Source: Candidatus Roizmanbacteria bacterium RIFCSPLOWO2_01_FULL_41_22 (lineage in GTDB: Bacteria > Patescibacteriota > Microgenomatia > UBA1406 > GWC2-37-13). From it: DNA of 42,439 nt. Below, one piece after another: positions 23,518 through 39,790 of the stretch (its first letter is position 1; each line of letters begins with the position of its first letter). Below the pieces are notes generated by a model. That model saw nothing but the letters and a program-made list of their open reading frames with translations. It ran no database searches and was not told the origin of the DNA. Made by a program: the position numbers and the translations under genes. The stretch spans positions 1 to 42,439 of the forward strand of contig MGAR01000037.1 in NCBI GenBank assembly GCA_001789805.1. The letters are read 5' to 3'.

Positions 23518-24945
23518 TTAACTGTTGTGCTTTAGTTTTTTTATCGTTGACTCTGGAAAACGTCCTTCAATAAGTAAAACTGTATCTTGATTGATTGTTT
23601 CCTTTAGATATATTATTAAATCCGAGACGTCGTTAAATGTTGTTATCTTACCTGCTTGGTCAAGCTCCTTAAATAACCGATCGGTGGTAAAAAGCGCAAT
23701 CCCGGTTTTGGCCAAAGCCTGAAGGATGGTTTTATACGACGAGCTCTTCTCTACTCCCAGTTCGATGATGCCTCGGGTAGCGATGATTTTTTTGGACTTA
23801 TCAAAAGTATTTAATACCTCAATCGCCGCTAAAAAACCATTGACATTGGTATTATACGAATCGTCAACCACCACTGCGCCTTTGATTCCTGCCAAAACTG
23901 ATAGTTTACCAGAGATTGGCTGAATTTTGGATATGGCGTGGGTTATCTCTTGGGTAGTCATATTCAAATCAATAGCCAGGGCAAGGCAAGGCAAAAGGTT
24001 GAGAATATTATGCTTACCCAGCAGCGCTGTTTGCAGGTGTATTTTATGGCGATGGTAATAGACATCAGCCGACGTCCCTTGAGGGGTGGTTTTGATGTTG
24101 GCAGCGTAGATGTCGGTTTTCTGGCGTATTGAATAATAAATTTTTCTGGCCGGTGATTTTTGTGTCAGTACCCGACTTTGTGGAAAATCCAGGTTGATGT
24201 AGGCAAAAGATTGTAAGTCAAGGAGCGTTAAGATATGGGTTTCTGCCTTTTGCAGATTTTTCCGGCTACCGTATAAATCCAAGTGCTGGTTACCCAGGCC
24301 GGTGAGAATGCTCTGATTTGGCCTGATGATTTTGGCTGTCCTCTCAATCTCTCCAGTGCGATAACCGCCATACTCGGCGATAAAATAACGGGTGTCTGAT
24401 TTCAGATTTCCAATTATCGATAATGCGATACCAACGTCGGTGTTCATGTTTTTTTCGGTTTTGGCGATTTTAAATTTTTGGGAAAGGATTTCATACAAAA
24501 ACTCCTTCACCGAGGTTTTACCGTAGCTGCCGGTGATTCCAATGCAGATAGCGCTAGATCTCTTTACCAGACTTTTGGCGCGGGTAATGAGCCATTGACG
24601 ATAAATATAGACCGGAATGGCTGTTAAGAAAACCGCGACTGAAGTTAACAAAAAAGCTATCAGCGGGACGATGAAAAAATCCAAAATTAAAAGCGGCAAA
24701 GACTGTTTAAGTAAAAGTTGAAAAATTAAGTAGTCGGCAACGAAAAGCAAGCCCATGATCAGCAAGTTGCGTGTTTTTTTAGCCGGTAACCGAAAGCTTG
24801 AGAAATAGAGCGCCTGGTACCAACCTTCTTCTTTGATAAATGAAAAAAAGCGGTCAAAACGGTACTCTTTGATCTGAAAAAAATAGATCAGCTGGAAGGC
24901 CTTGGCGAGGATAAACAAACTGATAAAAAGCGAGATTGTGAGCAT
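23518..24945 (-). CDS. Membrane-anchored Mur ligase (MurF-like)
   Basis: A 475-residue protein. The first 125 residues hold three to four membrane segments instead of the usual substrate-binding domain of MurF. The ligase part has the P-loop GITGSYGKTSVKE (about 136-148), NMNTDVGIALS, the GNQHLDLYGS segment with its His, and the C-terminal VVDDSYNTNVNG that matches MurF and related ligases. It would join an amino acid or dipeptide to a carboxylate using ATP. I chose ATG 24945 (MLTISLFISL); an upstream start at 24978 would overlap the hydrolase gene by 29 bases. Clustered with DegT and FemAB genes, it probably acts on a lipid-linked wall precursor at the membrane. Confidence 0.8.
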   Translation of the reverse strand: MLTISLFISLFILAKAFQLIYFFQIKEYRFDRFFSFIKEEGWYQALYFSSFRLPAKKTRNLLIMGLLFVADYLIFQLLLKQSLPLLILDFFIVPLIAFLLTSVAVFLTAIPVYIYRQWLITRAKSLVKRSSAICIGITGSYGKTSVKEFLYEILSQKFKIAKTEKNMNTDVGIALSIIGNLKSDTRYFIAEYGGYRTGEIERTAKIIRPNQSILTGLGNQHLDLYGSRKNLQKAETHILTLLDLQSFAYINLDFPQSRVLTQKSPARKIYYSIRQKTDIYAANIKTTPQGTSADVYYHRHKIHLQTALLGKHNILNLLPCLALAIDLNMTTQEITHAISKIQPISGKLSVLAGIKGAVVVDDSYNTNVNGFLAAIEVLNTFDKSKKIIATRGIIELGVEKSSSYKTILQALAKTGIALFTTDRLFKELDQAGKITTFNDVSDLIIYLKETINQDTVLLIEGRFPESTIKKLKHNS

Positions 24946-30874: not shown

Positions 30875-31996
30875 ATGGATAAAAACGACAGCTACACTCC
30901 ACCACCCGCTCCCAGCTCCACCGGTGTTCCCCCAGATAGTGTAAAAAAAGAAACGCCAGAACCGGTTTCAAGAGAAAAAGTGATTTTTGAGACTGATAAA
31001 GAAGCTTTAAAAAAATATAAATTGGTAGCAGTAGCTTATTCTCATGTCGAGCGTGATTGGTTCCCAACCGACGACGCCTACTACGCCGAACTTGAGGTGG
31101 AAGACCGGGCAGAGGAAGTGGTCAAGGAAATTGCCAAGTTTGGGATCAATGTTAAAAAATATCCCGGTAATGAGTATTTTCTGACTAACTTATTGGTTGA
31201 TCAGCCGGATCTGGTGGTGAATTTAGTTGATACCTTAAAAGGGAAAGATGCTTTGCAGACCTCGGTTCCGGCAGCTTTGGAATTATCCAATATCCCCTAC
31301 ACCGGAGCCGGAATTGAAGGATTAGTCATCGGCAATAGCCGTAATCTGATGAAGCACCTGCTGCTTTCCTATCAGATTCCGACCCCGCCTTTTCAGTTTA
31401 TACGACGCGCCGGTACTTTAATTGATGAAACGCTAGAGCTACCTCTCATTGTCAAGCTAAATGAAAGCGGCGGCAGTGTGGGTATCGATGATCGAGCGGT
31501 TAAAGAAACCGTTAAGGACGCACAAAAAAAGGTCGAAAAAATGCTGGAGACCTACCGGGTACCAATGGTGGTGGAACGCTTTATTGACGGGCCGGAGATT
31601 ACCGCCGTGGTCTACGACGACGGTCAGAAAAACCAGGTTTTTTTAGGTGAAAAAGTGTTTCGCAAAAAGCCCGACGGCAGGCATTATTTCACCAGTATTG
31701 AGAGTTATGACGACGCCCGGGCCTATAAGTACAAGTTTGTGGACGAACCAATGGCTTCAAAAATTGCCGCAATGGCAGTACGCGCTTTTAACGGTCTGAG
31801 TTTTGTTGATTATGCTAAATTCGATATCCGGATTGATGAAAGTACTGGGACGCCCTATTTTACCGACTCAAACCCAAATACTGCCTTTGGTCCAGATTTG
31901 GGCTTACCTTTCACTGAAGTTTTGGCACTTCATGGTGTACAATTTCAGGATGTGTTGGGCAATTTACTGACCAAATATGCCAAGAACCTCGAGTAA
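30875..31996 (+). CDS. ATP-grasp ligase, D-Ala-D-Ala ligase-like
   Basis: A 373-residue protein with a disordered Pro-rich start (1-35) and an ATP-grasp fold. Visible parts are NLVDTLKGKDALQTSVPAAL, the hinge Lys194 in LIVKLNESGGSVGID, the ERFIDGPEITAVV segment with its acidic residue, and Asp317 plus DSNPN (331-335) for magnesium. This pattern is closest to D-alanine-D-alanine ligase, but the family EVN is DSN here and the substrate loops differ, so the acceptor may be another amino acid or a peptide. Its stop overlaps the start of the C39-like peptidase gene by 20 bases. With the SET gene they form a possible modification cassette. Confidence 0.82.
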   Translation: MDKNDSYTPPPAPSSTGVPPDSVKKETPEPVSREKVIFETDKEALKKYKLVAVAYSHVERDWFPTDDAYYAELEVEDRAEEVVKEIAKFGINVKKYPGNEYFLTNLLVDQPDLVVNLVDTLKGKDALQTSVPAALELSNIPYTGAGIEGLVIGNSRNLMKHLLLSYQIPTPPFQFIRRAGTLIDETLELPLIVKLNESGGSVGIDDRAVKETVKDAQKKVEKMLETYRVPMVVERFIDGPEITAVVYDDGQKNQVFLGEKVFRKKPDGRHYFTSIESYDDARAYKYKFVDEPMASKIAAMAVRAFNGLSFVDYAKFDIRIDESTGTPYFTDSNPNTAFGPDLGLPFTEVLALHGVQFQDVLGNLLTKYAKNLE

Positions 31997-32588
31997 GGTC
32001 CATAGCCCACCTTTTAAGCGTTATGGCCAGATTTCCGACTCTCACTGCGGTCCAGCCGTGGTGCAGATGTTGCTGTCCAAATGGCGCATCAAAGTGACGC
32101 AGGAGGCGATCACTGAGGCCGTACACGTAAAAAGGTTTATCAAAGTGCACGGTACGCGTATCGACCAGCTGGCGCTGGCGGTAAAAAAACTAGCTCCGCA
32201 GGTGCAGTTTTGGTATAAAGACTTTGCATCAATTGACGACATTCGCCTGCTTCTCCGAGAACATCAACTGCCGGTGGCAGTGGAATGGCAAGGTATGTTT
32301 TTTGTCCACCGACATCGCGGAAAATATACTGAGGATGGTCATTACAGCATCATCATCCAGATTAAAGATGATAAACGGGAAATCACCTTGGTTGATCCGT
32401 ACAAAGATTTTGCCAAAAAACATCGGACCATCTCAATCCCCCGTTTTGTTCACCGCTGGTGGGATCATAATGATTTTATGAGTCCCAAAACTAAAAAAAT
32501 AAAAGTAAAAAAAGATATCCGGGCGCTTTTTGTGATTACCAAAAAAGACTATGTCTTTCCTCCCCAGCTGGAATTGATAAAAAGTTGA
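31977..32588 (+). CDS. C39-like papain-fold cysteine peptidase
   Basis: A 203-residue protein with the C39_2-type triad: Gln18 and Cys24 in YGQISDSHCGPAVVQMLL, His122 in EDGHYSII, and Asp140 in LVDPYKDF. No signal peptide or membrane segment is present, unlike the exporters that carry C39 domains, so it acts inside the cell. C39 peptidases cut after double-Gly-type leader ends or other peptide bonds. The gene overlaps the ATP-grasp gene by 20 bases, which implies tight co-expression. Its target is unknown; a substrate joined by the ligase next to it is a reasonable guess. Confidence 0.8.
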   Translation: MPRTSSKVHSPPFKRYGQISDSHCGPAVVQMLLSKWRIKVTQEAITEAVHVKRFIKVHGTRIDQLALAVKKLAPQVQFWYKDFASIDDIRLLLREHQLPVAVEWQGMFFVHRHRGKYTEDGHYSIIIQIKDDKREITLVDPYKDFAKKHRTISIPRFVHRWWDHNDFMSPKTKKIKVKKDIRALFVITKKDYVFPPQLELIKS

Positions 32589-32604
32589 AAGTTGTAGGTT
32601 GCTT

Positions 32605-32645
32605 GCCCTGAGCGAAGCCAAGTCTGACTTGGCGAAGTCGAAGGG
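32605..32645. repeat. Palindromic repeat GCCCTGAGCGAAG ... TCGAAGGG
   Basis: An interrupted palindrome lies between the C39-like and SET genes. It begins CCCTGAGCGAAG and ends GAAGTCGAAGGG, with an inner hairpin CCAAGTC/GACTTGG. The outer words match the 24-base palindrome inside copA at 37730-37753 (CCCTTCGACTGCGCTCAGGG). I know such words as a dispersed repeat type in several bacterial lineages. Confidence 0.5.
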
Positions 32646-32674
32646 TAGGTTATCAGTAAACAAGGTGAAATAAA

Positions 32675-33073
32675 ATGCTATATCAAATTGAAGTCAGGAA
32701 AACTAAGAAAATGGGGCGGGGCGTATACGCCCTTAAGAATTTTAAAAGATTGGAAATTATCGAAAAGTGTCCGGTGGTTCATCTGAAGCCCGGTGAGCGC
32801 CGGCATTGCGAAAAAACCATTCTCAATACCTATATCTACCCTTGGCGATCTTTACAGGATGCGGTTATCGTACTGGGATATGGTTCAATCTACAATCACA
32901 GCGTCAGTCCCAATACCAAATGGGTGCGAAGCTTTAAAACAGACCAGATGTTCTACAAGGCAATTCGTCCTATTAAGAAAGGTGAGGAAATCAGTGTTGA
33001 TTACAACGGCCCCTATGAGCCAGATTCGGACATGGATTGGCTGAAGGAACCTTCCCGCTATTCAAAAAAGTAA
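32675..33073 (+). CDS. SET-domain protein (lysine methyltransferase-like)
   Basis: A 132-residue stand-alone SET domain: GRGVYALKNF (15-24) for SAM, the SIYNHSVSPN motif (NHS at 74-76) and the end GEEISVDYNG (103-112) with the catalytic Tyr. There is no pre-SET or post-SET part; the short C-terminal tail has no cysteines. SET proteins methylate lysines in proteins. A well placed AAGGTG lies before ATG 32675. The gene follows the ATP-grasp and C39-like genes on the same strand with a repeat in between, so a shared job in modifying a protein or peptide is possible. Confidence 0.85.
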   Translation: MLYQIEVRKTKKMGRGVYALKNFKRLEIIEKCPVVHLKPGERRHCEKTILNTYIYPWRSLQDAVIVLGYGSIYNHSVSPNTKWVRSFKTDQMFYKAIRPIKKGEEISVDYNGPYEPDSDMDWLKEPSRYSKK

Positions 33074-36865: not shown

Positions 36866-39790
36866 TTATTTTTTAACAGTCATCATTCCTGAGCTAAACT
36901 TTGCAAACGCAAAGAACATAAATGAGAAAAGCAGCATCATGACAAAGGGTGCGACTGCTGAAAGATAATTTTTCTTGCCTGGTTTATATCCACGAAGCAG
37001 TAACGAATTGGTTACAACTGAGATGGATGATAAAGCCATTGCAAGCCCGGCAAGTTCAGGCTTAAGAACCAATCCTAGCCCCGCAAACACACGAGCCGCA
37101 ATGGGAATACCCATGACGTTATAAAAGAGCGCGAAGAACATATTCTGTTTTATCTTGTTCATCGTAGTTTTTGACAGATCAATGGCATTTGCTACGTCTC
37201 TCAAATCATTTTTGATGATAACGATTCCTCCTGCTTCCATAGCCACATCAGTACCAGACCCCATTGCAATACCAAGATCCGCTTGAGCGAGTGCTGGAGC
37301 ATCATTTATGCCGTCTCCCACCATAGCCACCTTCTTACCTTCATCCTGCAGTTTTTTTACATTTTTAGCTTTATCTTCTGGAAGCACTTCAGCCAATATA
37401 TTCGTAATCCCTACCTGCATAGCGATTGCTTTTGCGGTCCGCTCATTATCTCCCGTTATCATGTATACTTGAATCCCAAGTTTCTTGAGTTTTTCTACTG
37501 CTTCTTTTGAAGTCTCTTTTACGGTATCAGCAACACCAATCAGCCCTAGTATATTGGTTTTATTTGCAAGGATCATCACTGTTTTACCTTGTTCCTCAAG
37601 TCGACTCATCTTGCGATCAATTTTTTCTATTGGCAGACCCACTACGTCTTTAATTAATTTTCTATTGCCGAAATAATACGTTGTATTATCAAGACTTCCT
37701 TGCACGCCATGTCCTGGAATGGCTTTGAACCCTTCGACTGCGCTCAGGGCAAGTCCTTCGTCTCCCGCATAGGTATAGATAGCTTCGGCAAGCGGATGTT
37801 CTGACTGCTTTTCAAGCGAGGCGGCAATGGTAAGTACTTCATCCTCATCAAGATCTTTGAAGCTCAGCGTATCTGTTACTTCCGGCTTTCCTTTTGTTAA
37901 AGTACCCGTCTTATCAAAGACGATTGTATTTATCTTACAAGCCGCCTCAAGTGGCTCTCCACCTTTAATTAACATGCCGTGTTCTGCTCCTTTACCAGTG
38001 CCTACCATAATGGCAGTAGGAGTGGCAAGACCTAAGGCGCATGGACATGCAATTACAATTACTGCGGTAAAGGCCATGAGAGCAAAACTCAATGGGGCAC
38101 CAAGTAAAAAGTACCAAACACCGAATGTAAGAATAGCTATTATAATAACTATAGGAACGAAATAAGCCGAAATCTTATCAGCAAAGGCTTGAATTGGCGC
38201 CTTTGATCCTTGTGCTTCCTCCACAAGACGAATGATTTGAGCTAATGTTGTTTCGGACCCGACTCGAGTTGCCTGAAACTCAAAACTTCCCATCTTATTT
38301 ATTGTTCCTCCCACAACAGTATCTTTAATATGTTTTTCAACCGGCAAACTTTCTCCCGTAATCATTGATTCGTCTACTGCCGATGATCCTTTGACGATTA
38401 CGCCATCGACAGGGACTTTTTCACCTGGTCGGACCATTATTATGTCGTTGTGAACAACTTTATCAATAGGGATATCAAGAATTTGGCCATTGCGTATTAC
38501 GCGAGCTGTTTTTGCCTGCAAACCCATGAGCTTTTTAATAGCATCTGACGTTCTTCCTTTTGCTTGTGCTTCAAGCCATTTTCCTAAAATAACAAAGGTG
38601 ATAAGAAAGGCTGCGGTTTCAAAATACAGTTCTGGGATCTTCTCTACTCCGATACCGATAAGGGATTTGGTACCGAGATAATAAAATATATAGTTCACTA
38701 GGCTATAAAAGTAGGCAACAGAGGTACCAATCGCAATAAGACTATCCATATTAAATGTCTTCATGCGAAGTGCGGACCAAGCGCCCTTATAGAAACCGCG
38801 ACCAATAATAAATTGGACAGGGGTTGTGAGAATGAGAGAAATAATGCCAACAAGTGGTAAGAAAAATGCCCTTCCCGGGATCCATGAAAAGAAATCAAAG
38901 AGCATAAAGTAAATCATGGGAACGCTCAGAACCAAACTCACCATAAACTTACTAAAGAGTGATTTTATTTCTTTTTTTTGATTTTTTGCTTCAAACTGCG
39001 GATCTTTTTCATCAATAAATCTGGCAGAATAACCTGTTTGTTTTACTGCGTCTATGAATGACTCTTTTTTCACAGCTGATTCATCATAGGTAATAAGCGC
39101 CTTTTCTGCAGAGAAATTTACATTTGCTTCTTTTACTCCTGGGACTTTTTTAAGAGATTTTTCGATAATGAGTGCGCAAGAAGTGCAGTGCATTCCTGAG
39201 AGCGATAAGCTTACTCGTTTAGAAGTGTTTACCTCTTTTATTTCTGAGGAGGTTTTCATGGGCGATGTCATTAGCTTTGTCTCAACGGCCGTCTCATGAG
39301 ATCCATTAACTCCATCAAGAAGGTGAATGAAGCTCTGTGATTTTACAAATCTTTGAATGTAGTCTTCTGCTTCAACCTCTTTTCCTTTTGGAATAACCAC
39401 TTCTACAGATTTTTTATTATCTACTTTTCCTTGATAAGAAAGCTTGCCATTATCATTTTCAATTACTTGTCCATCTGCAGTTATATGTGATTGAAATACA
39501 ACTCGCATTGGATCTTTAGACTTTGTTCCTTTTTTTATAAGTTCAACTGCGTCCTTTTCCGTTTGGGTATCGTCTCCACCCTCTATCACTCCTGTGTACC
39601 CTGCTTTTGTGATTGCACCAAGAATATCATTTTGGGTAACTTTCTTCTCTTCGATTGTTACTGTTCCTTTTCCCGTTTTATGATCAATCACTGCATTAGT
39701 TGCTCCAGGAAGGGACGCAAGCTCATCTTTAATTAATAATTCACATGACGCACAGTGCATTCCAATCACAGAAAAAGATATTTTTTTCAT
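36866..39790 (-). CDS. copA: Copper-exporting P-type ATPase with two HMA domains
   Basis: A 974-residue P1B-type ATPase. HMA domains at about 1-70 (MHCASC, Cys13 and Cys16) and 190-260 (MHCTSC, Cys202 and Cys205) bind copper. They are separated by an unusual 120-residue insert with a beta-rich unknown part (about 92-165). Transport and catalytic motifs are [10 protein letters not shown] (CPC 582-584), DKTGTLTKG (phosphorylated Asp626), SEHPLAEAI in the nucleotide domain and [23 protein letters not shown] is in ITGES (about 478-482). It pumps Cu(I) out of the cytoplasm. It lies 25 bases after the HMA-SafE-cupredoxin gene and is co-transcribed. An embedded palindromic repeat encodes ALSAVEGF in the nucleotide-binding domain. 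Confidence 0.96.
37730..37753. repeat. Palindromic repeat inside copA
   Basis: CCCTTCGACTGCGCTCAGGG lies within copA and encodes part of [10 protein letters not shown]. The outer words recur in the intergenic repeat at 32605-32645. The reading frame stays open, and the length of this part of the nucleotide domain looks normal, so the repeat has not added residues. Confidence 0.5.

Follow-up and report, generated by a model that had tools for sequence, protein, structure and literature searches.

The window analyzed here, a 42,439-nucleotide contig of a Candidatus Roizmanbacteria genome, carries a D-Ala-D-Ala ligase (Ddl)-like ATP-grasp ligase gene and a C39-like cysteine peptidase gene that form a tightly conserved pair and are co-inherited exclusively. 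The two proteins each match a known fold and have intact catalytic residues, and their genes are adjacent. No paper on this ligase-C39 pair was found in the literature searched and, as far as that literature shows, it was previously unremarked. On balance, we favor a two-gene unit in which the ligase would form an amide bond and the C39-like enzyme would cut or transfer, with a GNAT acetyltransferase as an occasional third member and the SET-domain gene downstream as a bystander. The relevant features of the window are as follows:

30875-31996, + strand: Ddl-like ATP-grasp ligase of the LIG-A1 clade, 373 aa (PF07478, 55.7 bits against a Pfam cut-off of 24)
31977-32588, + strand: C39-like papain-fold cysteine peptidase, 203 aa (PF03412, 33.1 bits against 22; PF13529, 28.3 against 24)
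32589-32674, unstranded: spacer separating the SET gene from the pair, containing a strong palindromic hairpin (fold z = -4.15, no shuffle equally stable)
32675-33073, + strand: lone SET-domain protein, 132 aa (PF00856, 54.2 bits against 22.4)

The ORF coordinates agree with the first-pass annotation, which described three neighboring + strand genes, the first two sharing exactly 20 bases. The families it named (ATP-grasp ligase, C39-like peptidase, and SET domain) all scored above their Pfam cut-offs, and the residues it gave, D331-S-N333 in the ligase and C24/H122/D140 in the peptidase, were recovered. Its grouping of all three genes into one cassette survived only in part, as the local order and the ligase-peptidase pairing stood, whereas the SET gene is set apart by an 86-base gap with the hairpin inside and by an adjacency unique to the window. 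Viral contigs held no relative, PADLOC matched none of the three window proteins up to E 1, and the matches listed from phage and plasmid records were only distant Ddl-like ones (about 23-29% identity).

Conservation of the ligase-peptidase pair

Of 373 genomes of the class, 31 encoded LIG-A1 ligases (ligase clade, E < 1e-100) and 27 encoded the C39 family (E < 1e-50). Every one of the 27 C39 genomes fell within the 31 ligase genomes (hypergeometric P about 3e-37), rejecting chance in the co-occurrence count that the first-pass annotation had proposed. A C39 copy was located immediately downstream of the ligase in 27 of 27 genomes, the only wide spacing being that of one genome (G321, locus L057) in which a GNAT domain is fused ahead of C39. 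Four of the 31 class genomes carried a ligase with no neighboring C39.

Independently of this count, a ligase-profile scan of bacterial and archaeal genomes returned 33 LIG-A1 loci (best-segment identity 54-77%) and, at 35-40%, a further 47 loci that belong to a sister clade. LIG-A1 hosts comprised Roizman-, Woese-, Gottesman-, and Collierbacteria, Paceibacterota, WWE3, Amesbacteria, and Chloroflexota/Anaerolineae. At 26 of the 32 informative loci (the window included, two contigs ending within the ligase excluded), Anaerolineae among them, C39 was directly downstream on the same strand; no C39 neighbored the ligase at the other six. The first ATG of C39 lay inside the ligase reading frame in 15 of the 26, with the exact 20-base overlap in six. 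The gene-distance correlation was weak (Mantel r 0.28, a value reached by 40 of 9999 permutations). In one Collierbacteria genome (L080:9797-10970), the ligase is split over two frames next to an intact C39 gene, reflecting a frameshift or an assembly error.

Other neighbors differed between loci and the pair was mostly found alone, no common biosynthetic or export genes adjoining it across loci. A conserved small gene beside these genes, for which a search had been suggested, was not found in general: the largest small-ORF group covered 5 of 34 loci, restricted to Collier- and Woesebacteria, and lay on the strand opposite a conserved GNAT gene.

Peptidase, acetyltransferase, and SET gene

Residues Q18, C24, H122, and D140 of the peptidase were invariant in 22 homologues. 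Its AlphaFold2 model (pLDDT 91) matched the ComA peptidase (Z 16.7), PeiR (16.1), and Alr0975 (15.7), with CtaG also among the fold matches, and the closest solved structures to the peptidase profile by sequence included Alr0975 (2.4e-7) and PeiR (2.7e-7). PeiR is a pseudomurein endoisopeptidase and Alr0975 a primitive phytochelatin synthase. Given the resemblance to ComA, PeiR, and Alr0975, the protein may either cut or transfer an acyl group; that it cuts is not secured, because the C39 fold includes acyltransferases too. The protein is a 203-aa single domain with no ABC transporter fused. By inspection, no signal or transmembrane segment was evident in its sequence, so both it and the ligase are expected in the cytoplasm.

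A biosynthetic role for the pair is a possibility that we hold to be doubtful. Here, the ligase would build a small peptide and a C39-like acyltransferase or transpeptidase would finish it, comparable to phytochelatin synthase, BtrH, and CtaG, giving a thiol peptide, osmolyte, or signal. This is consistent with the proximity of the C39 profile to Alr0975 and PeiR, with the CtaG fold match, and with BtrH being an acyltransferase (PMC10318531). The sister clade LIG-A2, found in multi-ATP-grasp islands, and similar islands nearby with radical SAM or PLP-decarboxylase genes also point this way. However, the usual isolation of the pair from any common biosynthetic or export neighbors argues against it.

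C39 adjoined the more distant LIG-A2 clade at 7 loci. At L036-L052 (e.g., L040:5701-10590), LIG-A2 was often found by an AAA/ClpC-like gene, in islands encoding a second Ddl-like ATP-grasp protein and a protein of 450-490 aa that weakly matches PreAtp-grasp; C39, SET, radical SAM, or PLP-decarboxylase genes are sometimes present as well. These islands are a probable hot spot of peptide biosynthesis. Proteins of ~460 aa encoded next to these ATP-grasp genes, at L037:5276-6655, L047:8584-9960, L051:5237-6646, and L052:7642-9033, matched nothing in Pfam up to E 0.01. LIG-A2 was also present in the Aenigmatarchaeota bins L086, L087, and L088, with LIG-B on the same contig in two of the three. ORFs of 800-830 aa with a Ddl-like domain in relatives were considered as MurC-Ddl, but the one checked was a fusion of an L-amino-acid-ligase-like ATP-grasp and a Ddl-like ATP-grasp.

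A GNAT profile (E < 1e-40) matched 11 of the 373 genomes, 10 of them ligase-bearing (P 4e-11) and all 10 among the 31 LIG-A1 genomes, a count that is indicative and not independent, since GNAT loci of the kinds described below went into the profile itself. Natural GNAT-C39 fusions were encoded at three loci:

L240:62-1438: GNAT-C39 fusion
L241:4864-6207: GNAT-C39 fusion, the GNAT half by alignment only
L057:11092-12312: GNAT-C39 fusion

In L240 and L241, the fused gene is a second C39 copy in the genome, while in L238 and L239 a second copy closely follows a GNAT gene. Seven Collier- and Woesebacteria loci had a GNAT-family gene upstream of the ligase; two such genes were scanned, one scoring above the Pfam cut-off and one matching below it. 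Matches to DUF3335 were never above cut-off, and the window genome encoded no such GNAT at E <= 1e-8. In some relatives, and not in the window genome, GNAT is a better third partner than SET.

The SET protein has the expected motif set, NHS (N74-H75-S76) and GEE..Y (G103-E104-E105, Y110). It adjoins the pair at one of the 32 informative loci, the window itself, and no SET gene was found beside the other 31 ligases. SET genes were not significantly more frequent in ligase genomes (12 of 34) than in relatives (24 of 96; Fisher P = 0.27), and the nearest relatives of this SET protein, up to 58% identical, neighbor glutamyl-tRNA-synthetase-like and NUDIX-like genes, named by eye. These data speak against SET as a cassette member, and the gene is probably a neighbor outside the conserved unit. 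The earlier proposal of a system that adds, removes, and methylates hence retains its ligase-peptidase functional pair and loses the methylation. The spacer (32589-32674) folds into a palindromic GAAGTCGAAGGG-type hairpin with one looser match in the window, at 37730, and looks like a dispersed repeat.

A three-gene cassette, in which the SET protein would methylate what the pair acts on or makes, is accordingly rated improbable. The SET gene lies on the same strand only 86 bases downstream, and of the 28 other SET genes in 96 relatives, 3 had a non-Ddl ATP-grasp gene no more than 1 kb away (0.05 expected, P 1.6e-5), two of these three being known before the count was defined; L126 is a further SET/ATP-grasp case. 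However, none of the three adjoins the ligase-peptidase pair, SETs near ATP-grasp genes are of separate origin, their 6 rows requiring 6 changes on the SET tree, 31 of the 32 LIG-A1 ligases have no SET by them, and the hairpin spacer intervenes. A looser SET association retains a small probability.

The ligase in relation to Ddl

The AlphaFold2 model of the ligase (pLDDT 92) superimposed on DdlB over 305 residues (VIA Z 32.9, rmsd 2.3), the likeness spanning the length of the ligase. In an alignment of 74 sequences, the ATP/Mg residues K160, K194, E234, E241, D331, and N333 were invariant and D317 nearly so. The Pro-rich start reported previously is present, as part of a variable N-terminal tail that is rich in Pro, Lys, and Glu and spans about residues 1-44, but it is not conserved; as its length varies and it is short or missing in some relatives, it was rejected as a functional feature.

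Pfam, NCBIfam, and fold all identify the ligase as Ddl-like, which argues against a graspetide-like RiPP system in which the ligase would cyclize a ribosomal peptide and C39 would remove the leader. Although C39 proteases cleave double-glycine leaders and ATP-grasp graspetides include those of CPR bacteria (PMC8939145), the pair has no conserved small ORF beside it to serve as precursor and its C39 is a lone, apparently cytoplasmic domain with no ABC-transporter fusion, making this very unlikely.

The ligase scored 81.0 bits against TIGR01205, the NCBIfam Ddl model, far below the curated cut-off of 245.65, and NCBIfam Ddl models matched it only far under cut-off. D331 of its DSN motif occupies the place of Glu in the Ddl ExN. 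The D-Ala site of Ddl, with Arg255 (the oxyanion Arg), Gly276, and Ser281-Leu282 in E. coli DdlB numbering, corresponds to K315, A337, and a gap in the profile alignment, a comparison that leaves unaligned the N-terminal domain with Glu15, the contact to the first D-Ala. In the tree of ligase and true Ddl that had been proposed, Ddl (support 100/99) and LIG-A (100/100) formed separate groups, placing the ligase outside the Ddl clade with full support. True Ddl was encoded alongside the LIG-A1 ligase in 15 of 33 pair-bearing genomes. The suspicion that this might not be an ordinary Ddl was thus borne out by clade, score, D-Ala-site residues, and coexistence with Ddl; sequence and model together indicate a protein that folds like Ddl and keeps its ATP/Mg site intact, yet is not an ordinary Ddl. 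The result corrects the automatic Ddl label on the ligase.

No Ddl above cut-off was found in the window genome, compatible with an incomplete assembly (93% complete), and only 23 of 96 relatives had one. The other PF07478 match in this genome, tried as a Ddl, is CarB, as named from its sequence. Four Mur ligase domains are encoded, one at 23974-24537 of the window and three elsewhere, and with Ddl missing they would suit a diverged Ddl serving peptidoglycan synthesis where the ordinary enzyme was lost; this is barely credible, given the score, the separate clade, true Ddl in 15 of 33 relatives, and the changed or missing equivalents of R255, G276, and S281. The first-pass annotation had held that a ligase grouping inside Ddl with all D-Ala-binding residues, in a genome missing a second Ddl, would undo its view. 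The second Ddl is indeed missing from this 93%-complete assembly, but the ligase is not inside Ddl and its D-Ala-site residues are changed. The absence does not refute a separate role, since the ligase lacks those residues and both genes coexist in 15 of 33 relatives.

Proposed mechanism and comparison with known systems

Activation through an acyl-phosphate is the standard route of ATP-grasp ligases, and by analogy the LIG-A1 ligase would form its amide bond in this way. ATP would activate a carboxylate as the acyl-phosphate, which the ligase would then join to an amine. The resulting amide or peptide bond would be part of a small peptide, an amino-acid conjugate, or a protein. The co-translated, putatively cytoplasmic C39-like enzyme would cut the same bond or product or pass the acyl group on, and in some relatives the GNAT acetyltransferase would perform a third step. 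We infer that the two enzymes share a substrate, with the peptidase counteracting or processing what the ligase makes. More speculatively, and with low confidence, Patescibacteria and Anaerolineae may share a self-contained conjugation/deconjugation system in which the ligase tags a cellular protein or carrier with an amino acid or peptide, a dedicated C39 enzyme removes the tag, and GNAT performs capping in some lineages. As Patescibacteria, with their few genes, retain the pair across many lineages and Chloroflexota share it, the pair should do something useful, and, with only two proteins to express in a heterologous host, it opens a testable path to an amide-bond product.

Compared with Ddl (TIGR01205), the ligase shares the whole fold and the ATP and Mg residues but differs in its clade, in DSN for ExN, in Lys for the oxyanion Arg, in lacking equivalents of G276 and S281, in a score far below the curated cut-off, and in coexisting with true Ddl in relatives. 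Similarly, the peptidase has the fold and the catalytic Gln, Cys, His, and Asp of C39/C39_2 domains such as those of ComA and PCAT1; unlike these ABC-transporter fusions, it is soluble, stands alone, and has a ligase as its partner.

Iyer et al. (2009), cited in PMC10318531, reportedly predicted RLAN/RimK-like ATP-grasp loci with GNAT-papain (DUF3335) proteins. Among predicted systems these come closest to the pair in logic, and they resemble it in combining an ATP-grasp with a papain-fold peptidase, and in the GNAT-peptidase fusion of some pair relatives. In contrast, the ligase of the pair is Ddl-like with no RLAN domain (no RimK or RLAN match in Pfam up to E 0.1), DUF3335 remains below cut-off, and the window genome has no such GNAT. 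DUF3335-GNAT fusions have been noted previously (PMC10318531). Experimental precedent is provided by RimK/RimB (PMC11957791), in which an ATP-grasp glutamate ligase has a protease of its own. The two are encoded together, as the pair is, and act on one product, as proposed for the pair, although RimK belongs to another ATP-grasp family and RimB is an aspartic protease rather than a cysteine peptidase. The best reading is a soluble unit whose way of working follows that of RimK/RimB or that of the predicted RLAN/GNAT-papain systems, while it belongs to neither.
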